From assembly GCA_008375315.1 (NCBI GenBank), contig CP032507.1, positions 1,240,001 through 1,304,000 on the forward strand: DNA of 64,000 bases, in the 5' to 3' direction. Each line of letters opens with the position of its first letter. Position 1 is the first letter of the stretch. This DNA comes from Ectothiorhodospiraceae bacterium BW-2 (GTDB taxonomy: Bacteria > Pseudomonadota > Gammaproteobacteria > Thiohalomonadales > Thiohalomonadaceae). Positions 16,504 through 49,755 of the stretch are shown piece by piece. A program made the position numbers and the translations under genes. Below the pieces are notes generated by a model, which made no database searches, was not told the DNA's origin, and worked only from the letters and a program-made list of their open reading frames with translations.

Positions 16504-19500
16504 TTACACCAACCCAACCGGTACAACGGTTAACTCATCATCGACTAACAATCCGACCCCACTACCGGCTGTATAGTAGCTATAACTCTGACCACCGAAG
16601 GTATAGTTATCAGTCGAATCGAGCCACTGCTGGCTTAAGTTGAGAGTATCGGTTGCCGTACCCTCAATCACCATGTGGGCACTATGCGAAATGGTCGCAT
16701 CGTCAATAATCTGCTGCACCCCATCGCTCATCTGCAACACATCCTCTAAGCGTAAGCCAGTGGTAGCAGCGCTATTGCCAAGGGTGTCGCCACCATCCAT
16801 CTGAATCTTCTCAATCCCCTCCACCCTCGTCCGAATCGCTTGGGTATCGAGCACTACCGTGCCGCCATCTAGCAGTAGCGTGTCGAAACCGTTGCCGCCC
16901 TCCAGACGGGTAATGTTGGGGCTGACCAGCTTGAATAGATCGTTACCAGAACCGCCATAGGCGATGCTCCAATCAGGGTGAACACTAATCTCGTCATCCC
17001 CCGCCCCTGCAACCACATGCATCCCCGTTAACATATCATTCGAGGCGCTCCCTAGCGTATCGACCCGCGCTAAAAAATCGCCACCGTAGATAACATGGAG
17101 TTCGGCGCTAGCGTAGTCACCGTTGACATTGCCGCCGATCACCAGATCGCTAAAGCCGTCGCCATTGAGATCGCCACCGGCGTGGGCATCACCCACAGCC
17201 CCCCCCTCGCCGCTAATCACAAAGCCCTCCACGCCAGAGAACAGATCCGAACTTTGGACGGCGTTATAGTCCCCCCCTCCCTTTCCAAAGACGATATAAC
17301 TATCACTATAGTCACCAGAACCAGCACCGAAGGCGATATCATCAAAGCCATCACCGTTAATATCCCCAACCCCGTTAAGGGTGGTGATGGTATGATAGCC
17401 ATCGCCGATAATCTCAAAACCGACGCTTGTCCCATAGCCCATATTGAAATCAGCAATAGAGACACTGCTAATGGTTGGGTGGCCAAACACCACATAGATT
17501 CGATTAAGAGCGCTATCGACTAGACCAAAATCGGCATAGCCATCGCCATTCACATCACCGAGCGCCGCCACTGGGCCGCTGAGATCGTTATCCTGTAAGC
17601 TGGTAATCTCAAACCCACGATCACTCGATAAAGTTGCCAGATCAAGGCTACTTCCGTTAGCGCTACCGAAGATTAGGTGGGCGTTATTGCTATCGCCGTT
17701 AATGAGCATATCATCGAAGCCATCGCCGTTAATATCGCCAACGATGGTGACATTAGCTCCAGTGCTGACAGCCGATTGCGAATCGCTGCGAATGAGATAT
17801 CCCCCCACTCCCGCTGCGATATCTGAGCCGCTGATAGCGTTATTGTCGCTATTTTTGCCATAGACGACAAAGACGCCACGACTACCAAAAGCATCAATAA
17901 AATTAGAGCCAAGCAGCAGATCAGCTAGCCCATCGCCGTTAACATCGCCACCACCGCCAAGAGTCATCACGCCACTTTGGTAGTTAAAACCGCTCAACTG
18001 CAAGCCGCGTGCCCCGAGATTACTCAGTTCGAGCGGGGCAATCGTATCACTTGCACCAAAGATGATGAAGGCATCAAGGCTAGCATTGTCGTTGACGACT
18101 AGATCGGCAAAGCCGTCACCATTAAAGTCGCCTAAAGTGCGCAGCGTCTCACCGCTATAGCTACCTGCCGCACTGCCGTGGATGGCGAACCCCTGCGTGG
18201 AGCTCAAGCCGTTATAGAGATCAATCGTCTCCCCCGTAGGTGAGCCATAGATCACCCAGGTGGTGCCAGCTGCCTCTGAGTTACTAACCAGATAGTCAAC
18301 ATAGCCATCGCCGTTAATATCAGCTACCGCGACCTCTCTGCCCAGAGTGCCTATGGTCGCCGAGTCGTGAAGATAGCTGACCTTCAGGGTATCCGGTAGC
18401 GGACGCACGCCCTCCCCCTTCAACATACCAGCATCAAGCATCACCTCGCGATAGAGAAGATCGACCGTACCGAGACTACTCAATTCGCCATCACTAAGGG
18501 TGTAAGTAAAGCTGATAGGATTGTTGATGAGTTTAACTTCAATAGGATAGTAGGAGAGATCTGTCAACGGTGTAGGCACATTGAGAACCCAGTACTCCCC
18601 ATCGACAGTCAAATAGCCATCTCCCTTACGATAGAGGGTATCGTCGAGCGCGACAACCAGTGTCTCGCTGCCGCTACGCTGTATCGTCCCCATCACGGTC
18701 GGCGTGAGCGAGCTGCTGTCATAGGTGCTAATCGTCACCCCCGGCATCGCCTCAACGCTAATCAAGAGCTCGCTGCTAGTTGCATCGCTCAGGCCATCGG
18801 CCACCACCTCCACCTCATACGCCCCCGATGGGAGAGGGGTCGCGCCGCTAAGATCGAGCTTCCAGAGCGTATCATTCAGGGTCAACTCCGGCGCAACGCC
18901 CAGCGTATAGGTCACTGCGTTAACGGTAACCGATAGCGCCGTCGTACCTAAGGGCGTACTCCCCATAAGAATCGGGGTTGTGTCGCTGGTATTATGAACC
19001 ACCACCGTTGGTAGCTCGCTAAGGAAAGTATTAATCATCAGCCACGATAGATCCATTGCGCTGTAACTGCTCGGCACGGTGGTGCTCAAGTTAATCCAGT
19101 TACCCTCAAGAGTGATGTTACCGCTGGTAGAGCTAGGGGCTTCAATGGTGAGCATCGCGGCCCCCTCCGGATCGCTGTCGTTAGCGAGTAGTGTGGCGGT
19201 ATCGATCTTCAGTGTCGTGTTGAGAAAGGGGATCAGGTTCAACCTATCACTCTGCGCGATGGGCGCTTCGTTAATGTCATTCACCTCAATGCTCAGAGTC
19301 AACGAGTCACTCAATGGAGTGCTACTATCATCTGTCACAACAATATCGACGCTATAGCTGCTCTGAGTCTCATAGTCGGCGCTAGCGTTGAGGGTCAGCT
19401 CGCCGGTTAAGCTATCGATAGTCAATGCGCTAGCATCAGTGCCTGCTATGCTATAGGTGAGCGCAGAGGCGCTATCTGCATCTGTGGCGGTAGCGGTGTA

Positions 19501-22500
19501 AACCACAGTGCTAATGTCGCTATTTTCATCGACGCTGGCACTGCTACCACTGGTTATGATGGGAGCGTCGTCAACCGAATGGATGGTGAGATCGATCTGC
19601 TGTGTCGTTGTACCACCCAAGTCATCGGTGACAGTGACGGTGAAGCTGTCACTACCAAAATAGTCGGCATTAGGGGTATAACTCCAGAGGCCACTGGCAG
19701 GATCGATGGTCGCGCTGCCATTACTGGCACTGCTTGTCACAGCAAAGAGGTTACCGCTAGTCAGCCCATCAATGTCGTTGGCACTTAGGGTACCGGTGAT
19801 GGGGCTGGCTCCATCCTCATCGCCGCTGCCAGTTAGGTCGCCGCTAAAGGTGGCGCCATCATCAATGGGATTGACCGTTACCACAATCAGTTGAGTGGTG
19901 GTACCGCCCAAATCATCGGTGATGGTGACGGTGAAGTCATCACTGCCAAAATAGTCGGCATTAGGGGTATAACTCCAGAGGCCACTGGCAGAATCGATGG
20001 TCGCGCTGCCGTTAACGCCATCGGTAGTCAGCGCAAAGTAGCTACCATCGTTCAGGCCTTCACTATCACTAGCGATCAGAACGCCGCTAATCGGTACTAG
20101 AGCATCTTCATCACCCTCGCCTGTCATATCACCACTAACGATCGCCATATCGTCAAGCGGGATAATCGTTAGCATGACTGCGGCCTCTGCTGTGCCGCCA
20201 TTACCATCGCTAATTTGGTAGATAAAGCTATCCGTGCCATTGTAGTTAGCATCGGGGGTGTAGCTAAAGCTGCCATCGCTATGGAGGGTCAATAGGCCGT
20301 GGGCAGCCTCGGCTATCGGGGTGGTGTTAACGCTTAAAATATCTCCGCTATCTACATCGCTATCGTTCAGCAGCAGGTCATCAACGGTGACTATCGTTGT
20401 CAAAGTCTCATCTTCGTTGAGAGTATAGCTATCGCCGAGCGCCGTTGGGGCATCGTTGACATCGGTCACCACCACTTCGGTGGTCGCGGTGCCACTGGAG
20501 TAGGCTGTGGTACCGCCATTGAGGCTCACATCGGTGAGTTCTCCTGCATTTAAGCCATCAGTTTGATCCCAGCTATGGAAGGTAACGGTCGCGCTCTCGC
20601 CATTGGCTTGATCGGGTTCGTAGCGTAGATAGTCTCTCTCCGTCAGCAATAGCGCGGCGGTGCTGCTTAAATGGGTCGGTAGCAGGCTCCAACTTGTTCC
20701 TAAATCGGTGGAGTAGCTCCAAACGCCATTGCCGGTTGACCCTATCACGGCGATACCACGAGGCTCTAGAGCACCATCGGGCTCATCATAGACAGCATTG
20801 GCAAAAAAGGTCGCTACCTCCATGGAGAGGGTGGAGATATCCTCCTCTATGGTGGTGGTGTGGCTGCCGGAGAGTCGTGGGGCGTCGTTTAGGTTGCTGA
20901 CTGCGGCGGTGATATTCGACTCCACACTCTCGAAGGTGCCGTGGTCATCGAGGTAGCTCCCTTTGGCTTTAATTTGCTGTCCCACTTCGCTTTGGGTCAT
21001 GACTAGCGTATTGCCACTGGCTATCAGGTTCCAGCTGCTGCCGCCATCACTGCTACCATACCAGTCGTAGTTGGGAGAGAGACTGAGGCCATCGGCGTCA
21101 GTCACTGTGTCGATGATGGTCAAGGTATCCCCCTGTTGTGGGGTCTCGTTTTCAAGCGTCAGGTTACCCGCAGGCAGGTCGTTAGTAGGGGTCACGGTAA
21201 TAGCGACGGTCGCGCTGGCGCTCTGGCCATCGCTGTCGGTGACGGTGTAGCTAAAGCTGTCGGAGCCATTGTAGTTGGCATCCGGGGTGTAGTCGTAGCT
21301 GCCGTCGCTGTTAAATACCAGGCTGCCGTGGGCAACATCGGTTGCAAGGGCAAAGCTAGCGGGAAGTTCGCCTAGGGTGTCGTTGGTCGCTACGCTGTCG
21401 CTATGGCTGCTATCTTCTTCAAGGGTGATGCTATCGTCTAGCGCGGTTAGGGGCGGTGAGGTGGGGGTCACGGTAATAGCGACGGTCGCGCTGGCGCTCT
21501 GGCCATCGCTGTCGGTGACGGTGTAGCTAAAGCTGTCGGAGCCATTGTAGTTGGCATCCGGGGTGTAGTCGTAGCTGCCGTCGCTGTTAAATACCAGGCT
21601 GCCATGGGCAACATCGGTTGCAAGGGCAAAGCTAGCGGGAAGTTCGCCTAGGGTGTCGTTGGTCGCTACGCTGTCGCTATGGCTGCTATCTTCTTCAAGG
21701 GTGATGCTATCGTCTAGCGCGGTTAGGGGCGGTGAGGTGGGGGTCACGGTAATAGCGACGGTCGCGCTGGCGCTCTGGCCATCGCTGTCGGTGACGGTGT
21801 AGCTAAAGCTGTCACTGCCGTTAAAGTCTGGAGTCGGGGTGTAGTCGTAGCTGCCGTCGCTGTTAAATACTAGGCTGCCGTGGGCAACATCGGTTGCAAG
21901 GGCAAAGCTGGCGGGAAGTTCGCCTAGGGTGTCGTTGGTCGCTACGCTGTCGCTATGGCTGCTATCTTCTTCAAGGGTGATGCTATCGTCTAGCGCGGTT
22001 AGGGGCGGTGAGGTGGGGGTCACGGTAATAGCGACGGTCGCGCTGGCGCTCTGGCCATCGCTGTCGGTGACGGTGTAGCTAAAGCTGTCACTGCCGTTAA
22101 AGTCTGGAGTCGGGGTGTAGTCGTAGCTGCCGTCGCTGTTAAATACTAGGCTGCCGTGGGCAACATCGGTTGCAAGGGCAAAGCTGGCGGGAAGTTCGCC
22201 TAGGGTGTCGTTGGTCGCTACGCTGTCGCTATGGCTGCTATCTTCTTCAAGGGTGATGCTATCGTCTAGCGCGGTTAGGGGCGGTGAGGTGGGGGTCACA
22301 GTAATAGTGACGGTCGCGCTGGCGCTCTGGCCATCGCTGTCGGTGACGGTGTAGCTAAAGCTGTCGGAGCCATTGTAGTTGGCATCTGGGGTGTAGTCGT
22401 AGCTGCCGTCGCTGTTAAATACCAAGCTGCCGTGGGCAACATCGGTTGCAAGGGCAAAGCTGGCGGGAAGTTCGCCTAGGGTGTCGTTGGTCGCTACGCT

Positions 22501-25500
22501 GTCGCTATGGCTGCTATCTTCTTCAAGGGTGATGCTATCGTCTAGCGCGGTTAGGGGCGGTGAGGTGGGGGTCACGGTAATAGCGACGGTCGCGCTGGCG
22601 CTCTGGCCATCGCTGTCGGTGACGGTGTAGCTAAAGCTGTCACTGCCGTTAAAGTCTGGAGTCGGGGTGTAGTCGTAGCTGCCGTCGCTGTTAAATACCA
22701 AGCTGCCGTGGGCAACATCGGTTGCAAGGGCAAAGCTAGCGGGAAGTTCGCCTAGGGTGTCGTTGGTCGCTACGCTGTCGCTATGGCTGCTATCTTCTTC
22801 AAGGGTGATGCTATCGTCTAGCGCGGTTAGGGGCGGTGAGGTGGGGGTCACAGTAATAGTGACGGTCGCGCTGGCGCTCTGGCCATCGCTGTCGGTGACG
22901 GTGTAGCTAAAGCTGTCGGAGCCATTGTAGTTGGCATCTGGGGTGTAGTCGTAGCTGCCGTCGCTGTTAAATACCAAGCTGCCGTGGGCAACATCGGTTG
23001 CAAGGGCAAAGCTGGCGGGAAGTTCGCCTAGGGTGTCGTTGGTCGCTACGCTGTCGCTATGGCTGCTATCTTCTTCAAGGGTGATGCTATCGTCTAGCGC
23101 GGTTAGGGGCGGTGAGGTGGGGGTCACGGTAATAGTGACGGTCGCGCTGGCGCTCTGGCCATCGCTGTCGGTGACGGTGTAGCTAAAGCTGTCGGAGCCA
23201 TTGTAGTTGGCATCCGGGGTGTAGTCGTAGCTGCCGTCGCTGTTAAATACCAAGCTGCCGTGGGCAACATCGGTTGCAAGGGCAAAGCTGGCGGGAAGTT
23301 CGCCTAGGGTGTCGTTGGTCGCTACGCTGTCGCTATGGCTGCTATCTTCTTCAAGGGTGATGCTATCGTCTAGCGCGGTTAGGGGCGGTGAGGTGGGGGT
23401 CACAGTAATAGTGACGGTCGCGCTGGCGCTCTGGCCATCGCTGTCGGTGACGGTGTAGCTAAAGCTGTCGGAGCCATTGTAGTTGGCATCCGGGGTGTAG
23501 TCGTAGCTGCCGTCGCTGTTAAATACCAAGCTGCCGTGGGCAACATCGGTTGCAAGGGCAAAGCTGGCGGGAAGTTCGCCTAGGGTGTCGTTGGTCGCTA
23601 CGCTGTCGCTATGGCTGCTATCTTCTTCAAGGGTGATGCTATCGTCTAGCGCGGTTAGGGGCGGTGAGGTGGGGGTCACAGTAATAGTGACGGTCGCGCT
23701 GGCGCTCTGGCCATCGCTGTCGGTGACGGTGTAGCTAAAGCTGTCGGAGCCATTGTAGTTGGCATCCGGGGTGTAGTCGTAGCTGCCGTCGCTGTTAAAT
23801 ACCAAGCTGCCGTGGGCAACATCGGTTGCAAGGGCAAAGCTAGCGGGAAGTTCACCTAGGGTGTCGTTGGTCGCTACGCTGTCGCTGTGGCTGCTATCTT
23901 CTTCAAGGGTGATGCTATCGTCTAGCGCGGTTAGGGGCGGTGAGGTGGGGGTCACGGTAATAGCGACGGTCGCGCTGGCGCTCTGGCCATCGCTGTCGGT
24001 GACGGTGTAGCTAAAGCTGTCACTGCCGTTAAAGTCTGGAGTCGGGGTGTAGTCGTAGCTGCCGTCGCTGTTAAATACCAGGCTGCCATGGGCAACATCG
24101 GTTGCAAGGGCAAAGCTAGCGGGAAGTTCACCTAGGGTGTCGTTGGTCGCTACGCTGTCGCTATGGCTGCTATCTTCATCGACGGTGACTTTATCTTCAA
24201 CGGCGATGAGAGCAGGCGAGGTCGGCGTAACAGTGATGACTGCGGTCGCTTGAGCAGTCCCACCATTGCCATCGCTAATTTGGTAGGTAAAGCTATCCGT
24301 GCCATTAAAGTTGGCATTCGGGCTATAGCTGAAGCTGCCATCGCTATTCAGTATCAAGATACCGTGAGCAACATCGGTCACCGGAGTGGTATTGACGATA
24401 AGGGTATCAAGATCGATGTCGCTGTCGTTTTGTAGCAGGTCGTTACTGCCCGCTACTGTGATAAGAACACTATCTTCTTGCACGCTATAGCTATCTACAA
24501 CAGCAATGGGGATATCATTAATCGGTTCAATCGTCAGGGTAAACGGTTGGGTAACTATCGTGGTGCCATCGGAGACGGCAATCTCAATCACTTCACTGCC
24601 CCCCGCCGTCGGTGTGCCGCTGAGTAACGCAGTACCATCACCATTATCGGTAAGAGTCAACCAGTCGGGCTTGGTGACGCTGCTGACAACGAGCGTGGTG
24701 TGGTTATCGACATCGCTGACGCTGATTGCATATTGGTAGCTTTGATCCTCTATGGCGCTGGCTATCGGAGTGGAATCAAACTGTGGCGCTTGGTTACTCC
24801 CCTCTAGGGTTAGGGTAAGCGTTGCAGTAGCATTCAGATCGTGTGAGTTGGCTATTTGATAGCTGAAGCTATCGATGAGTTGCTCCCCTTCTGCCAGAGC
24901 TCTTACTGTTTCGGTCACGGTAAGTCGGTAGAGAAAGTCGCCACTGCTGTTAATAACAATATCGCCATAAGCGCCACTCACCACCTGCTCTATCAAGGTG
25001 TCATTACCATTAATGGCGGTCACAGTGAGGGTTGCCCCTTGGGGATCGCTATCGTTGCTAAGAAGGTTACCGGTGGTAATATCTGCGGTAGTGGTTAGCA
25101 GATCGTCAGTGGCAACGGGTGGTTTTGTGGCAACCGGTGTGATAGCCACTAGGTTAGATTGCGCCGCTGACACAGCCTGCTCGACGCCGCTTAGGTCGCC
25201 GGCAGCCATGGCGGTGTAAAAATCATCCCCCATACCGTCTGCGTAGCTACTCATGGCCGTTGAGATGGTCGCGGTGTCTATCTCTCCGGCTTCGAAGCTC
25301 TGATAGAGGATCACGGCGCTATCTACGGCATTACCGACCACTTGGTTCAGCTCTTCAGAGGTGAAACCCTCTAGGAGGGTAGCTAGTTCGCCCTTTTCGG
25401 CTACTTTTTGCAGCACTGAGGAGACCGCTTGCATGGCAAATTGGGTCGAGTCGCTGTCGCCGCTAGTGACTTTCTCACTCACTAGAGACCAGAGTTTGGT

Positions 25501-28185
25501 CGCGCTGGCTTCAAGGGCGTCCTCGTTCTGGTCAAAGTCATCGGCGGTGAGCTGTTCTGGGGTGCGTCCGCCGAGCAGTGACTGTAGCGCACTCTCGCTC
25601 ATGCCGGAGGCCTTTAGGGTCGAAAAGATCGAGATAGTTACCGTTTCTGTCGGGTTGGTCGGGGCAATAGCGCTTAACGCGCCACTGAAGGGGGTACCGG
25701 AGACTGTGTCGGTGCCCCCAGTCACAACGAGTTGTAGGGTATTGCCTAGTGTATTCACTCCACTGGTGACTACACTGCTCTCGGCGGTAGTTAGGCTAAA
25801 GTTGTAACTGCCGTCACTATGGGTTGTGGTTGAGGGATCGCTATCTGAAAGCCTACCGTCGCCATCAAAATCGTAAAAGACGATCGCGTCCGCTAGTAGC
25901 CCTTTGGCGGCTATACCGGAGGTATTGATCAGCTCAGGCTCAGGATCAGGCTCAGGTTCTGGCTCAGGTTCTGGCTCAGGCTCAGGCTCAGGTTCTGGCT
26001 CAGGTTCTGGCTCAGGTTCTGGCTCAGGTTCTGGCTCAGGTTCTGGCTCAGGTTCTGGCTCAGGTTCTGGCTCAGGTTCTGGCTCAGGTTCTGGCTCAGG
26101 TTCTGGCTCAGGTTCTGGCTCAGGTTCTGGCTCAGGTTCTGGCTCAGGTTCTGGCTCAGGTTCTGGCTCAGGTTCTGGCTCAGGTTCTGGCTCAGGTTCT
26201 GGCTCAGGTTCCGGCTCAGGTTCCGGCTCAGGTTCTGGTTCAGCCACAGTTGAACCTTGGGAGAAGTCCTGCTCTGAAGCTAGGTTACCGTCGCTATTGG
26301 GGACTGTTTGGTTCGGTTCGCTGTTCGTTTCGGTCTCTGAAGTCGGGTCGTTACTGGTGGTGTTATCACCGTTTGGGGTATCGGTCGAGGCTTCCCCGTT
26401 CGATTCACTCTCCCACGGCTGTTCCGATTGCAGGGTGTCGAGCTGTGTCGCTTGAAACCCCTCTCTCCCCTCTAGCTCGGAGGTCGGCATCGCTGGGCCG
26501 CTGTCGGTTCCGCCATTTGATGAGGTGTCGTTCTGTTGGCTCTCTGCCCCCCCCTCCTCTACGGTTGTGTTGGAGAGACCTTCGTTGTCAGTCTCGCTAC
26601 CGTTCTCTGTTGTCGGAGCTCTCTCTAAATCCGGGGCAGGTTCGGTGGTCGGCTCTGATTCCGATTCTGATCCTGATACTGATTCTGATTCTGATTCAAT
26701 TTGTGGCTCTGACTCCTCTGTAGCGGCTGTCTCTAATGCCTCTTCGGATTCGCTTTCAGGTGCTGATTCTGGCTCTGGTTCAGGCTCTAGTTCAGACTCT
26801 GGTTCAGGCTCTGGTTCAGGCTCTGGTTCAGGCTCTGGTTCAGGCTCTGGTTCAGGCTCTGGTTCAGGCTCTGGTTCAGGCTCTGGTTCAGGCTCTGGTT
26901 CAGGCTCTGGTTCAGGCTCTGGTTCAGGCTCTGGTTCAGGCTCTGGTTCAGACTCTGGTTCAGACTCTGGTTCAGGCTCTGGTTCAGACTCTGGTTCAGA
27001 CTCTGGTTCAGACTCTGGTTCAGACTCTGGTTCAGGCTCAGGCTCAGGCTCTGGTTCAGGCTCTGGTTCTGCTTCCTCTTCCGGTTCGGTTTCGGGCTCT
27101 TCTGCCTCGCTCTCCTCGTCTTCTCCCCCTTTTTCATCCCCTTGGGGCTCCTGCTCCTCTCCCTTCTCCTCCGTTTGGCTCTGTTCTGTCGCCTCTTCTG
27201 CCTTCGAGGGTTCAGCGGCCTGCTCTTGCTGCTCCTGTTCGTTGGTAGGGTTGGCTGCTTGTCCGGTGATCTGGTTACTCACTCCAGACGAAAAGAGGGT
27301 CTGAAATAGCTGTAGGGTATTTTGGTCGGCTTGAAAGATATTGGAGACTCCGCTATCAAGCGTTACTACGGTACCGGTGCCGCTATCTAGCAGTGTCACT
27401 AGGCCATCACCATTCAGGTCGGTAATATCTATCACGCCGTCATGGTGAATAAAGGTGGCCTCGCCACTGTCGGGATCGACCTTACCCTCTAGGGAGCTGC
27501 CGCGCACTCCAGCTATCGCAACTGGGGTGGTGATGGTGGTGTGTTTGTAACCGGGTTTGAGGGTACCGATTTTGCCGCTGGTATAGCGAAATGCGCCATG
27601 AATAACCCCGATTTCGACCTTAACTTCGGTTGTCTCGGGACGGTAGATATACTCATCTAGGGTGGTACGGGTCGATCTGCCGAGGGTGTATTGTGTGCCA
27701 TCTATGAACTCAATTTTGGCCGTCCCATCAGCGCCGCTAATAATTTGGTCGCCTTTGTAGATATCGCTTCCCGCTTGCAGCGTCACCTCACTGCCGTCGA
27801 GACGAATCGCTTTCACTTGACCATCCATTTCAGTGATGCTGCCGATCTTGTCGGCGTGGGGTGGAGTGTTTGGGCCTGCGATCTGCCACGCCTCTCGCTG
27901 CCCTCCTACTAAGGCATTGACCATCGCTGGGGTGAGTGAAGCCCCGCTCGGCGTGGTTAATAGGGGCGGGGTCGGGGTGGCAAAGTAGCCCTCTATCGTC
28001 TGCACGGTAGCGTCGGCGATACGAATCACCAAATCAATCCCCACCTGGTGATAGCTCCCTTGCAGCAGCAGCGAGGCGTCGGCTAAAGTCACTACCGTGA
28101 CGCCCTCCATACCCTCTCGCTCAGCTAAAGGCTCGCTCTGCTGCCCTAATTGCGGTAGATTCTCTTCTCTGTTTATGCTGCGCAT
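16504..28185 (-). CDS. Giant FecR/cadherin-like/FG-GAP repeat surface protein
   Basis: 3893 residues, one frame. Order: an N-terminal retention-like region (1-110); a FecR-like domain (about 112-290, with '[22 protein letters not shown]'); two Glu-Pro-rich low-complexity tracts (about 371-474 and 647-751) around an acidic Ser/Thr region; a Ca-binding-like '[13 protein letters not shown]' segment near 770; assorted cadherin-like/Ig-like repeats; eleven near-identical 92-residue repeats (about 1320-2331); more cadherin-like repeats; seven FG-GAP repeats of 'D-x-NGDG-x-x-D' type (about 3295-3730); and a C-terminal segment with RTX-like 'GAGDDEI' and 'YGGSGNDLF'. There is no Sec signal peptide. 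By family this is most likely a type I secreted adhesin or biofilm protein. No ABC exporter is adjacent; a TolC gene lies 31 kb away. Confidence 0.88.
21191..24226 (-). repeat. Eleven tandem 276-bp coding repeats
   Basis: The motif GTCAC(G/A)GTAATAG recurs at 21191, 21467, 21743, 22019, 22295, 22571, 22847, 23123, 23399, 23675 and 23951, an exact 276-base step (92 codons). Units differ at few positions, mostly the choice between '[12 protein letters not shown]' and '[12 protein letters not shown]' and between ATVAITVT and ATVTITVT. The two variants are interspersed. This near-identity at DNA level points to recent expansion or gene conversion within the giant gene. Confidence 0.95.
25931..26244 (-). 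repeat. 12-bp microsatellite encoding (Glu-Pro)n, C-terminal tract
   Basis: About 26 copies of the plus-strand unit GGCTCAGGTTCT, coding for an alternating Glu-Pro run on the minus strand. The unit length is a multiple of three, so copy-number change keeps the frame. Confidence 0.95.
26763..27072 (-). repeat. 12-bp microsatellite encoding (Glu-Pro/Ser)n, N-terminal tract
   Basis: About 25 copies of the plus-strand unit GGCTCTGGTTCA with GACTCTGGTTCA variants that give Ser in place of Pro. The wobble pattern differs from the other tract (TCT/TCA swapped), so the two tracts expanded separately rather than one being a recent copy of the other. Confidence 0.93.
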
Positions 28186-45862: not shown

Positions 45863-46471
45863 AAGTATAACCAGTTCGATACGATCTATCATGAGCACTT
45901 CTCCTACTTATCGTTACAAACCGTCAGTCAGATTTTCCAGAGTGTTGGATTACGCATTTGGGATGTCGAACAGTTATCAACCCACGGTGGCAGCCTGAGA
46001 ATCTATGGTTGCCACGATGAAGATAAGCGTGCAACGACAGTTGCGGTAAACGAACTGTTAGCACAAGAGATCCAAAGTAGCTTACAGCAAGTCACTACCT
46101 ATACCCAATTTCAACAGAACGCAGATCGGGTAAAAAATGAGCTGCTACAGTTTCTAATTGAACAGAAAGGGGCAGGTAAAACGGTTGCGGCTTATGGGGC
46201 TGCGGCAAAAGGCAATACTCTGTTAAACTATGGTGGTGTAAAGCCCGATTTACTCCCGTTTGTCTGCGATGCAGCCCAAGCTAAACAGGGTAAATATATG
46301 CCAGGAAGCCACATACCCATTTTAGCGCCAGAGGCGATTCAGCAAGCAAAGCCCGATTTTATTCTGATTTTGCCGTGGAACATTGCTCCGGAAGTACAAA
46401 AACAGCTAACCTACATTCGTGAATGGGGTGGAAAGTTTGTGGTAGCGGTGCCGAGCTTAACGATCGTGTAA
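45863..46471 (+). pseudogene. C-methyltransferase, 3' fragment
   Basis: A frame out of step with the chaperone reads 'KYNQFDTIYHEHFSYLSL' and runs to a TAA at 46469. 'FDTIYHEHFSYLS' is a strong motif of sugar-nucleotide C-methyltransferases. The downstream part matches the C-terminal domain of that family ('VAAYGAAAKGNTLLNYGGV', 'QGKYMPGSHIPI', 'FILILPWNIAPEV', 'WGGKFVVAVPSL'). The SAM-binding half and start codon are absent. Its product family makes branched deoxysugars for O-antigen or related glycans. Confidence 0.85.
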
Positions 46472-46495: not shown

Positions 46496-47854
46496 GTGAA
46501 ACAGCGTTGGACACTACAATTTGAAAGTTTAGGTCGTATCGATCGAGGTGAGATTACTCTCGCCCCTATGATGATCTTTACCGGTCAGAACAACACCGGA
46601 AAAAGTTATGTTATGGCTCTGCTGTGGGGCGTCATCGCATTAGGGCGCGAGTTATTTCCGGAAGATGTTCCTGAAAACACAGCCTACCAACGCTGTGATG
46701 AGTGGCTATCAGAAAAAATTGGTCAAGGTGTCCCTATTGATGAGGCGATTGCCAATATGTTTATCGCTTGGTTTAGTGAATCGCTAAATCAACACCGAGG
46801 CAAGCTCACTGATGCACTCTTTGGAGAGGGTCAGGTTCCGCTTAAAAGTCTGCGTATAAAAGATTATCAGCGCACGGTTCCGCTGAAATTACGCTGGGAT
46901 GAAGGACAACGGGATTCAACTTCGCGTTTCTCTGCAGGCAAAGATTATGTCCGTTTTCCATTAAATGAAAAAAAAATCGGCAAGGCTGCCCGCTATCGTA
47001 TGATTCGCTATCTTACCTGGAAGCTGGTAATGGACGACCTGAGTGCGCCACTGTTTCCGCCAACACAGCCATTTGGTGCTGCGCCACGGGGGGAGATCCT
47101 CTATCTGCCCGCAGCGCGTACCGGTTTTATGTTAATGCGTAAAACATTAGCAACTGCCACGATGGGCATTGCTAGTCTGCCGGGAGCAGAACACGCCATG
47201 CCACTTATTTTGCCTGTCCGACGATTTTTACAACGACTATTTGGTCTCAGTTTCCATGAAAAAGGGACGCATTCCGATGTGGCGGATAGAATCGAGCAGG
47301 AGATTGTGATGGGCACCATTCGACCCGATGGTGCGCCGCTGCCAGACTACCAATATAGTCCTGTTAACCAAACAGATCTGAACCTGCCGATATGGCTTAC
47401 CTCTTCCATGGTGACAGAGCTAGCGCCTCTACTCATTTTTTTGCGCAGCCGTGAGGATTTCAGAACCCTGCTGATTGAAGAACCAGAAGCGCATCTGCAC
47501 CCTGAGGCGCAGATTGTACTTGCCAAGGCACTGATTCAACTTGTTAACGCAGGCCTACCGGTTTGGCTCACCACTCATGGTGATAATTTCTTGCAACAGC
47601 TAAGTAATCAGGTTAAGGCATCCTCACTCAATAACGCACAAAGAGGAGAGCACGGATACCAGAAAGAGGAGTGTATCAAACCCGATGATGTGAGGGGCTA
47701 CTATTTTGCTGTCAGCGATGCACACCATAAAACGGGTATTACACCCTTAAGCATCTCCCTAGATGGCATTGCGGCAACCTCATTTAATGAAACGCTGATT
47801 CGCCTGAGTCAGCAGACGCTCTCAATTAACGCAGCGATCGATGCGACTCAATGA
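46496..47854 (+). CDS. AAA15/OLD-like ATPase of a candidate two-gene system
   Basis: 452 residues, GTG start after 'AAGGATTACA'. Walker A is 'GQNNTGKS' (residues 30-37), an SMC/OLD-like P-loop at the end of an N-terminal 'FESLGRIDRGEITLAPMMIFTG' lobe. The signature and Walker B are combined in 'LLIEEPEAHLHPEAQ' near 325, and an H-loop 'TTHGDN' lies near 359. There is no TOPRIM domain as in true OLD nucleases. The middle (about 60-290) is unrecognised. The stop overlaps the next gene by four bases (ATGA). The pair sits inside a broken sugar-gene cluster and its base composition is lower in G+C than the core. Many ABC-type ATPases paired with a nuclease act in phage defence, which is the inferred role here. 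Confidence 0.8.
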   Translation: MKQRWTLQFESLGRIDRGEITLAPMMIFTGQNNTGKSYVMALLWGVIALGRELFPEDVPENTAYQRCDEWLSEKIGQGVPIDEAIANMFIAWFSESLNQHRGKLTDALFGEGQVPLKSLRIKDYQRTVPLKLRWDEGQRDSTSRFSAGKDYVRFPLNEKKIGKAARYRMIRYLTWKLVMDDLSAPLFPPTQPFGAAPRGEILYLPAARTGFMLMRKTLATATMGIASLPGAEHAMPLILPVRRFLQRLFGLSFHEKGTHSDVADRIEQEIVMGTIRPDGAPLPDYQYSPVNQTDLNLPIWLTSSMVTELAPLLIFLRSREDFRTLLIEEPEAHLHPEAQIVLAKALIQLVNAGLPVWLTTHGDNFLQQLSNQVKASSLNNAQRGEHGYQKEECIKPDDVRGYYFAVSDAHHKTGITPLSISLDGIAATSFNETLIRLSQQTLSINAAIDATQ

Positions 47855-48390
47855 AAACTGAACGCTTTCAGAAAGAGGCTTGGTCACAAGGACGGCAGCT
47901 TAAGGCTATTGAAAAAGCGAATGATGGCTTCGCTGAGATGACGCTCAACCTGAAAACGAGGGGGGTATTGTTCCAGTACTCGCCTAATACTTCGTTCATT
48001 TTCAGTAACCCGAAAAGAGCGGATGGGATTCTGTTTCAGCAGGAAGAGGGAGGGCGTTGGGGAATCACGCTGATTGAGCTAAAAAAGCAGGTAAAATCTA
48101 AAGAGTGGAGCAAGATAAAGCAGCAGTGGCACGGTGCATGGCTGCACGCAAAAGCGATTGCCGGAGTGCTGGAGATAACCCTTTCTGGTAAGGTACAATG
48201 TGTTATCGGTTATCAAACTGAAAAGTTAGGGCAGAATAGTACGGATCCGGTTCTAATCAAAACAGATAGGGCGACACAAAATGGCTGTCATGAATGGAGC
48301 GAAAAATATGCTGAAATTGATGAGGTTGGGACTGTCGCCTTTGTTTCAGTACAGTTGGATGCAAATGGTTTTGGTGAGGTGACATTATGA
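47851..48390 (+). CDS. Candidate PD-(D/E)XK nuclease partner of the ATPase
   Basis: 179 residues, not recognised as a named family. A possible nuclease core is visible: Asp58 in 'KRADGILFQQ', then Glu76-Leu-Lys78 in 'ITLIELKKQ', which is the D-...-E-x-K layout of the PD-(D/E)XK fold. Basic residues follow ('KSKEWSKIKQQW'). The ATG overlaps the ATPase stop (ATGA), so the two are coupled. The assignment rests on the motif and the context only. Confidence 0.6.
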   Translation: MKTERFQKEAWSQGRQLKAIEKANDGFAEMTLNLKTRGVLFQYSPNTSFIFSNPKRADGILFQQEEGGRWGITLIELKKQVKSKEWSKIKQQWHGAWLHAKAIAGVLEITLSGKVQCVIGYQTEKLGQNSTDPVLIKTDRATQNGCHEWSEKYAEIDEVGTVAFVSVQLDANGFGEVTL

Positions 48391-48638
48391 AGCCAAGAAT
48401 TCTCTATACTAAGCCTTCGATTACAGAGCTTGAAGTTAAATATGCTACTGATGCAGCAGCGAATGGCTGGGGCGATCAATGTTATGCCTATATCAATCGC
48501 TTTGAAGGATTGGAGAGGATGCAGATTTTTAATGTAACCGGTAAAGTGGAGCAGTCGGGGATATTTGTAGGTGAGTATGAATGTATGAATTCTAGAATTT
48601 TCCAAATTCCTATTACAGATTCCGGTGTCTATAATTAA
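48387..48638 (+). pseudogene. DegT/DnrJ-type aminotransferase 5' fragment
   Basis: The first ~40 residues ('LYTKPSITELEVKYATDAAANG' to 'YINRFEG') match the start of DegT/DnrJ/EryC1 sugar aminotransferases. From about residue 42 the sequence departs from the family and ends 40 residues later without any PLP region, so this is a 5' remnant joined to other DNA. The new tail ('IFNVTGKVEQSGIFVGEYECMNSRIFQIPITDSGVYN') is unidentified. The ORF overlaps the end of the nuclease candidate by four bases, so it could be mistaken for a third subunit of that system. Confidence 0.72.
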
Positions 48639-49054
48639 GATTTAATTATGCGAATTTTACTGACAGGCGCAACCGGCTTTATAGGTCGTTATATTGTACA
48701 AGAGTTACAACAGCAAGCGATCGACTTTGTCACTCTTGGCAGGAGTAATCCAGATAGATACAGAAATCACATTACAGCTGATCTATTAGCAACATCCGAC
48801 TTTGCCGATATTGTCAAAACAGCTCAGGCAACACATCTAATCCATTTAGCATGGTATGCCGAACATGGAAAGTATTGGTCATCGCCACTTAACTTAGATT
48901 GGATGCAGGCTACAACACGATTAGTCGAAGCGTTTTGAGAACATGGCGGAGAACATATTACTGTTTCGGGTACCTGTGCTGAGTATGATTGGAGTTATGG
49001 CTATTGTGACGAAGAGTTAACCCCAACCAATCCAAGTACAGTTTATGGTATTGC

Positions 49055-49062
49055 TAAAGATG
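49055..49062 (+). repeat. MITE target-site duplication, left copy
   Basis: TAAAGATG at 49055-49062, identical to the right copy at 49323-49330; possibly nine bases if the preceding C is counted. Confidence 0.85.
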
Positions 49063-49322
49063 GGCCTTGTTCATCTCTTCGTCAGCTCCCCTCCACCCCC
49101 TTCCCTCTGGGAAAGGCGGAGAGGGAAGGCGAGGGAATCATGCCTCATGAGGGTGACGAGACGATGAACAAGACCCGGGTTTCGTAGGGGCGGGTTTGAA
49201 ACCCGCCCCTACACGCCGTGGATTACCGGAAGAGATGGTCGTTTAAAAAGCACGGTTTGAATCACACTTGGTTGGAGGGGCATAATAGAAACCGCAAGCT
49301 TGACGGAACGATGAACAAGGCC
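49063..49322 (+). mobile_element. 260-bp MITE-like element
   Basis: Starts GGCCTTGTTCATC and ends GATGAACAAGGCC, a perfect 13-bp terminal inverted repeat that extends to about 18 of 21 bp. Flanking bases are TAAAGATG on both sides. No ORF of note. An additional copy of the terminal motif lies inside at 49154-49176, and a perfect 29-base palindrome (14-bp arms, odd centre) lies at 49184-49212. Non-autonomous DNA transposon by structure; the driving transposase is not in the window. Confidence 0.88.
49184..49212. repeat. 29-base perfect palindrome inside the MITE
   Basis: GTAGGGGCGGGTTT-G-AAACCCGCCCCTAC, 14-bp arms around one base. The GTAGGGGCGGG core resembles the right arm of the palindrome at 51316-51336, so it may be a REP-like repeat family of this genome. 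Confidence 0.75.
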
Positions 49323-49330
49323 TAAAGATG
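49323..49330 (+). repeat. MITE target-site duplication, right copy
   Basis: TAAAGATG directly follows the terminal GGCC of the element. Joining either copy to the other side re-creates the epimerase reading frame. Confidence 0.85.
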
Positions 49331-49755
49331 CAACCAGACAGTTAATCAAAATTATCTGTAACAAGCATAATGTACCGTTAGCATGGGGACTAGTCTTTTT
49401 CCCGTATGGTAAGGGGGAACCAGAAACCCGGTTAATCCCATCATTATTTTCTGTATTTCGCAATGAAAAAAAACCATTTGGAGTTAACGCTAATAGCTAT
49501 CGCGATTTTTTGCATGTATCCGATGTAGCACACGCATTCTTAATACTGGCAAAAAAAAATACAGCGGGTATAATTAATATTAGCTCTGGTGAACCATTGA
49601 TAATAAGAGAAGTGGTTGAGTTAATTGCCGATATGCATCAGAGTAAATCTGATAAAATTTTAAAGCTAACTACGCCCCTGAGTGTCAAGATACCCTGAGA
49701 CCACCCCTGATGAGAAATGAATGTAGAATCAGGGGGGCAACAGAGGAGATACACG

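Follow-up and report, generated by a model that had tools for sequence, protein, structure and literature searches.

An ATPase gene overlapping a putative nuclease gene in Ectothiorhodospiraceae bacterium BW-2 looks like a divergent relative of the PD-T4-4 and WonAB anti-phage pairs

What does an ATPase gene that overlaps a small putative nuclease gene do between fragments of sugar genes, and does such a pair belong to a defence system that has already been described? We addressed this question for a locus of Ectothiorhodospiraceae bacterium BW-2, lying in a stretch of 64,000 nt (CP032507.1, positions 1,240,001-1,304,000, forward strand) that is called the window throughout. The first-pass annotation of this DNA had described two genes joined by an ATGA overlap, the second encoding 179 residues, and both open reading frames were found just so:

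46496 to 47854, forward strand: A, an OLD/AAA15-type ABC ATPase of 452 aa with a GTG start (ORF calls, Pfam, PADLOC, model)
47851 to 48390, forward strand: B, a putative PD-(D/E)XK nuclease of 179 aa with an ATG start (ORF call, invariant residues, predicted fold)
47851 to 47854, forward strand: ATGA, in which the stop codon of A overlaps the start codon of B (sequence)

The GTG start of A is backed by homologues that open with the same WTL-type segment, and the ATGA suggests that translation of A and B is coupled. Taken together, A and B look like a divergent relative of the PD-T4-4 and WonAB anti-phage pairs. The ATPase carries the following elements:

within A, forward strand: Walker A, GQNNTGKS, with K36 (sequence)
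within A, forward strand: Walker B region, IEEPEAHLH, with E329 (sequence)
within A, forward strand: H-loop, T360-H361 (sequence)
within A, forward strand: predicted C-terminal helix, residues 429-451 (model)

The OLD/AAA15 layout previously assigned to A was confirmed, as GQNNTGKS, EEPEAHLHPE and THGDN are all present and Pfam returned AAA_15 (2.7e-16) and AAA_21 (4.5e-7). The THGDN element stands for the window protein but not for seven other aligned A proteins, which have THSD, not THGD. Among 83 PADLOC families, PD-T4-4_A was the best match to A (6.9e-33), followed at lower ranks by PDC-M47A (5e-23), NsnB (7.2e-19) and AriA (4.4e-18), and nothing close to the cut-offs was obtained for A or B in NCBIfam. 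Neither protein showed a TOPRIM or HNH domain up to E 1 (Pfam, NCBIfam). That A lacks TOPRIM had been proposed before, and it agrees with the absence of space for such a domain, because the model of the 452 aa finishes in the ABC fold and the helix at 429-451. This model (mean pLDDT 88) matched the SMC, Rad50 and PtuA heads among solved structures (Z 13-15); by sequence, the nearest solved protein was an OLD-family endonuclease (6p74, 5e-9), with further matches to other AAA ATPases, including retron PtuA, and to AriA.

Establishing whether A and B travel together beyond the window is essential to reading them as one module. A 5-row ATPase alignment searched against genome_contigs gave at least 596 candidate stretches and at least 234 confirmed loci, of which the best 80 were taken further. 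The gene adjoining A was extracted, a first rule (longest ORF) yielding one in 73/80 loci, and an iterative profile seeded with the ten closest B proteins took in 66 of the 73. As controls, 1188 other ORFs of the same loci were offered to the B profile and 4 joined it, all of them the true gene at the A end (L065, L092, L099, and L104), where the longest-ORF rule had chosen another frame or none. Adding these 4 to the 66 recruited, a B-family gene adjoins A in 70 of the 80 best loci, so that the pair, which we had been advised to seek in other genomes, is present there. A contig end lies beside A in 6/80 (L068, L084, L085, L098, L110, and L126), and 4/80 were left unclassified (L077, E 0.0055; L091; L107, E 0.037; L127). 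There is one real exception on viral contigs, L016, whose close ATPase is followed by no B-like ORF, and a second copy in the genome of L060 (L176:628-2561) has its ATPase gene in pieces and B as an intact ORF.

The ATPase query brought most of the family. With B alone as query, no relative was found in genome_contigs by peptide pattern or in plasmids, a 3-row B alignment found none in viral contigs, and 398 genomes gave two matches besides the host. In the viral ATPase set, several of the 30 loci inspected (of 41) have longer ATPases followed by a helicase and look Gabija-like by eye.

The nearest relatives of the window pair, defined by B homology, make up a clade from which we drew 18 pairs, the window counted, although counts over these pairs are not fully independent because L056 and L166 are nearly one locus. 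L055-L060 came from the genome_contigs ATPase search and L007 and L008 from the 398-genome search; further clade loci are L014, L166-L168, and L170-L175. Left outside the 18-pair set were L015 and L169 (copies of L014), L172 (A cut at the stretch end), L176, and L016. Two of the relatives belong to Synergistaceae (L055 and L056, 54% and 51% in A), one to Thauera terpenica (L057, 38% in A) and one to Faecalicatena (L058, 35% in A), while L059 is from Sorangium and L060 from Rhodospirillales. FastTree, run on 106 ATPases, placed the 18 pairs in one split (support 0.988) and four PD-T4-4/PDC-M47-type ATPases in another (support 1.0), and it grouped the window ATPase with L055, L056, L166, and L167 (support 1.0). 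A and B therefore agree, since the ATPases of a set chosen by B homology nonetheless fall together in one split. For the 18 pairs, the distance matrix of A correlated with that of B at r 0.81, with 0/10000 permutations as high, which shows co-inheritance, not contact. Across the 18 pairs, 27 positions of A are invariant, including G30, G35, K36, E329, H335, and H361.

The B clade is rare in the genome samples. It occurred in 3/398 genomes of the host phylum including the host (single-sequence search), 1/369 of the host class, that is, the host alone (3-row profile), 5/185 of the L056 phylum with L055 and L056 counted, 1/349 of the L057 order, namely the L057 genome itself, and 7/299 of the L058 family with L058 counted.

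The D58...E76-x-K78 motif noted earlier in B is present and invariant, all three residues being kept in 18/18 pairs; E21 (17/18), W86 (16/18), and Q92 (14/18) are also conserved. In a wider B alignment, D58 and E76 were found in 21/21 sequences and K78 was nearly invariant. Up to E 1, B matched no Pfam family and neither the PD-T4-4_B nor the PDC-M47B model of PADLOC, and searching PDB sequences with the B alignment yielded nothing below E 0.17. Identification as Cas6e was considered and dropped as weak (0.0063 in PADLOC; 0.024 in NCBIfam, 15 bits vs a cut-off of 45.2). An AlphaFold2 model made with 21 aligned B proteins (mean pLDDT 78.7, pTM 0.73) predicts a core of strands 59-64 and 70-81, helix 83-107, and strand 111-124, mostly at pLDDT >85, where D58 lies at the head of one strand and the following strand bears E76 and K78. 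Foldseek against the PDB placed HamA of Hachiman first (E 0.11, not significant). The best VIA-align row (Z 5.0) is Rpb5, which we take to be no nuclease; by our own assignment, the 50 VIA-align matches listed comprise 33 PD-(D/E)XK nucleases (presumably including HamA, Shedu, NucC, Avs4, and Card1), 8 rows of the Rpb5 subunit, and 9 unrelated proteins. Given the mean pLDDT, the lack of any Foldseek match below 0.1 and Rpb5 as top Z, the fold is assigned mainly from the motif and the core order. Checking the predicted structure thus gave a divided answer: the core order is of the PD-(D/E)XK type, but the structural matches are weak (Z <=5.0, Foldseek E 0.11), and the model agrees with a PD-(D/E)XK-like core without proving it. 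The earlier proposal that A, having no nuclease domain, may have B as its nuclease partner appears largely supported. Of the two outcomes named beforehand as speaking against it, a B fold unlike PD-(D/E)XK and ATPase homologues that never adjoin a B gene, neither was observed, weak as the fold match is.

The flanks of the pair offer a view of how it may have arrived. They are, as had been reported, sugar-gene fragments (C-methyltransferase, DegT, epimerase) and mobile DNA, here a two-ORF insertion sequence recognised by eye:

45900 to 46471, forward strand: 3' fragment of a sugar C-methyltransferase gene, reaching somewhat further upstream (97% to intact copy)
48387 to 48518, forward strand: 5' fragment of a DegT/DnrJ/EryC1 aminotransferase gene, 44 codons (93% to Peteryoungia desertarenae)
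48648 to 49698, forward strand: NAD-dependent epimerase gene in pieces (ORFs, Pfam)

Besides these sugar genes and mobile DNA, the identified neighbours of the pair in the window include an efflux transporter. The methyltransferase fragment matches a second genomic place (97% over 454/482 queried bases), where the gene is intact (about G000:C1:2282619) and where the stretch inspected beyond it lacks both the pair and DegT. The C-methyltransferase homologue of Peteryoungia desertarenae, on which Pfam found Methyltransf_14, has ...PELKIV at its C-terminus, and its stop codon runs into the start of DegT by 4 bases (ATCGTATGAAGCC). In the window, the methyltransferase ends in ...PSLTIV with TAA at 46469-46471, A starts after 24 further bases, and it is the TGA of B that shares bases with the ATG of DegT (TTATGAAGCC). 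Comparison of the Peteryoungia overlap with these window ends places the pair exactly at the methyltransferase-DegT junction, as if it had been inserted between the methyltransferase and aminotransferase genes. The ORF at 48387-48638 was rejected as a third component because it opens with the first 44 aa of the DegT aminotransferase.

Several other elements were observed in the window and the host genome. The epimerase gene is interrupted by a 261-bp element (window 49062-49322) with 22-nt terminal inverted repeats (86% complementary) and a 7-bp flanking duplication, TAAAGAT (49055-49061 and 49323-49329), which looks like a miniature inverted-repeat element. Matches spanning about 240 bases or more of it lie at eight other places in the genome, and partial matches are far more numerous. 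It contains the palindrome GTAGGGGCGGGTTT/AAACCCGCCCCTAC, and this palindromic core recurs at G000:C1:3668047-3670738 in an array-like manner, at intervals of about 147 and 205 bases. The window also encodes, at 16504-28185 on the reverse strand, a 3893-aa protein with bacterial Ig and cadherin repeats and FecR and FG-GAP matches. Elsewhere, the host has a second pair (G000:C1:1009698-1011643; L146:1199-3144) whose genes overlap by four bases and match PDC-M47A (2.4e-210) and PDC-M47B (1.2e-75). A third host defence module with an OLD-type ATPase is a complete-looking NsnA-NsnB-NsnC set (G000:C1:2207535-2210373; L147:36-2874; 5.1e-109, 8.4e-78, and 4.8e-60), which adjoins an insertion-sequence ORF that also occurs in the window.

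The first-pass annotation had regarded the position of the pair as typical of defence genes, and among the relatives a defence-type setting was indeed seen, with L168 and L058 inside defence operons and L167 beside one. The L168 run consists of a DUF499 ATPase (4.3e-86), a HepT-like gene, a DUF1156 methylase (3.7e-279), A, B, and a PLD helicase (2.9e-239), so that methylase and helicase directly flank the pair. At L058, the pair lies between two C5 methylases and, on the other side, one unclassified gene followed by two type II restriction-enzyme genes, and downstream of L167, on the opposite strand, are a BrxHI/PLD-type helicase and an HmaB-like methylase. Other relatives have polysaccharide genes nearby: NTP transferase, DegT, and epimerase genes at L056/L166; a WecB-type epimerase, Wzy_C, and glycosyltransferases at L057; RgpF, ALGX, and a weak glycosyltransferase at L170 (Pfam), where L170:3623-3979 had no Pfam match; and Bac_transf, NTP transferase, and acyltransferase at L174 (Pfam). 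At L172, a Pfam-confirmed glycosyltransferase is >6 kb away. By eye, the neighbours of L055, L059, L060, L149, L150, L169, L171, L172, L173, and L175 are housekeeping, phage-like, or unclassified.

A polysaccharide-gene search of 84 loci (window not included), run mainly with queries taken from the positive loci, matched L056, L057, and, more weakly, L064. A Pfam scan of 114 flanking ORFs from 17 clade loci vs 118 from 17 random controls, which counted family members rather than loci and omitted ORFs >4500 bases or beyond 6 kb (e.g., RgpF of L170), gave no clear polysaccharide excess. Among the 25 commonest families listed, glycosyltransferases had 2 members in the clade vs 2 in the controls, and sugar nucleotidyltransferases had 2 in the clade and none listed for the controls. 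Enrichment of the clade near polysaccharide genes remains a lead. We found no paper joining O-antigen with defence islands in the searchable, largely open-access journal literature.

We read A and B as a two-gene anti-phage module of the kind that couples an OLD-ABC ATPase to a PD-(D/E)XK nuclease, presumably working as WonAB does (probability of roughly 85%). By analogy, A most likely detects infection and then permits B to cleave nucleic acid, upon which phage growth would stop. The WonAB mechanism is carried over to the window pair because of the shared design: A would form a head-to-head dimer of the ABC type around ATP, hold B on its C-terminal extension, and sense infection; an ATP-dependent change in A would then license B, and B would cut nucleic acid so that the infection aborts. 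In the accessible text of PMC12137116, both WonAB genes are required, and ATPase mutants and WonB K71A give no defence. Weighing against the main reading, most other clade loci have neighbours without an evident defence link, L016 lacks B, and L176 has a broken A.

A tentative alternative overlaps with this reading and differs in the substrate of B, which would be a DNA nuclease serving as restriction backup on phage DNA, with A as a sensor of DNA ends or structures like Rad50/PtuA. The structural rows of A (SMC, Rad50, PtuA) and of B (presumably mostly DNA nucleases) point in this direction, as do the relatives inside DNA restriction operons and the interpretation, in the accessible part of PMC12839542, that these dyads serve BREX-type systems as a backup effector. 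However, the structure rows of B are weak, and WonB toxicity spares genomic DNA and resembles translation arrest (PMC12137116, accessible text); there, rRNA or tRNA is the suspected WonB target since translation halts and the genomic DNA persists. As overproduced WonB blocks translation and causes no loss of genomic DNA, we lean, by analogy, slightly towards RNA cleavage with translation arrest over DNA restriction.

It seems unlikely that the clade is a separate, unnamed dyad subtype with its own trigger, its own substrate, and its own nuclease, marked by the invariant D, E, and K and the nearly invariant E21 and W86, and that it lodges repeatedly in surface-polysaccharide operons. If true, variation of the receptor and abortive defence inside the cell may pass on together as a single cassette, since surface-polysaccharide loci shape phage receptors. 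We find it improbable that the two form a toxin-antitoxin pair in which A merely neutralises B: a small protein with nuclease residues, tightly coupled behind an ATPase gene, would suit this, but WonB is toxic only with active WonA, which excludes simple sequestration for WonAB (PMC12137116, accessible text). Very improbable, finally, is a role outside defence, in which the pair serves the surface-polysaccharide locus or is mere cargo travelling with it, as the window, L056/L166, L057, L170, and L174 lying among polysaccharide genes would suggest, but other clade members sit in restriction operons or among unrelated genes and the 17 clade loci showed no clear glycosyltransferase excess over the 17 controls.

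Under the main reading of an anti-phage module, the defence class gains 1) a clade with members in Synergistota, the family of the Faecalicatena genome, and several proteobacterial and other genomes, 2) in B, a nuclease candidate that the family libraries tried fail to recognise, and 3) defined pairs and residues for asking whether RNA or DNA is cut and what the ATPase senses.

How the pair relates to known systems can be stated on both of its sides. The ATPase has intact Walker A, Walker B, and H-loop motifs and no TOPRIM, and its partner is a small adjoining protein with D...(D/E)xK in 18/18 pairs. PARIS (AriA/AriB), Gabija, Septu (PtuAB), and OLD share an OLD/AAA15-type ATPase with the window pair, but their nucleases are TOPRIM or HNH, domains found in neither A nor B of the window. 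To our knowledge, two examples of the present class have been tested, PD-T4-4 and WonAB.

PD-T4-4 (PMC9519451, accessible text) and the PADLOC candidate system PDC-M47 likewise consist of an OLD-type ATPase followed by a protein of about 185-210 aa with a D...(D/E)xK...Q core, and a PD(D/E)XK nuclease domain is tabulated for PD-T4-4 in the accessible part of PMC10952713. In contrast, B of the window matches neither of their B models, and the ATPases fall in separate splits (0.988 and 1.0). Identity between the window pair and the PD-T4-4 examples L009-L012 is 11-18% in B and 21-23% in A; the A-adjoining proteins of the latter were recognised by PADLOC PD-T4-4_B (L010, 5e-107; L011, 2e-94; L012, 5e-81; L009, 1e-12). 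Profile comparison of the B clade with five PD-T4-4_B/PDC-M47B-type partners (L009-L012 plus L146) gave E 1.8e-5 and probability 78, with D, (D/E)xK, and Q among the 51 aligned columns. No significant alignment with the B clade was obtained for seven shorter partners of 139-168 aa (hhalign, E 0.013, probability 3), yet iterative profiles connected them to it.

WonAB, compared by description only from the accessible text of PMC12137116, shares an OLD-ABC ATPase with ABC motifs, a small PD-(D/E)xK protein, and a C-terminal extension on the ATPase, which is predicted in the window A; it differs in size, WonB being 16.1 kDa vs 179 aa for B. We looked for WonAB among nine shorter-partner loci and rejected this placement, as the residue numbering disagreed with the positions given for WonA. 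The "OLD-ABC ATPase + novel REase" operons of Krishnan et al. 2020, described in the accessible parts of PMC12137116 and PMC12409358 and compared by that description only, have the same two-gene design as the window pair, and are said to contain all detected WonAB homologues (PMC12137116). The 2026 BREX survey (PMC12839542, accessible part) reports OLD-ABC ATPases paired with HNH, PD-(D/E)XK, or PIN nucleases in 594 taxa and treats the trio of DUF499, methylase, and helicase as a BREX-related system; L168 looks like such a case, whereas no such run surrounds the window pair, which is by itself between sugar genes. The first-pass annotation had suggested an undescribed module, and this claim is not supported, because dyads of an OLD-ABC ATPase and a PD-(D/E)XK nuclease are already published (PMC12137116 and PMC12839542, accessible parts) and A is nearest to PD-T4-4_A (6.9e-33). 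The window pair is therefore a divergent addition to a published kind, and its novelty is modest.
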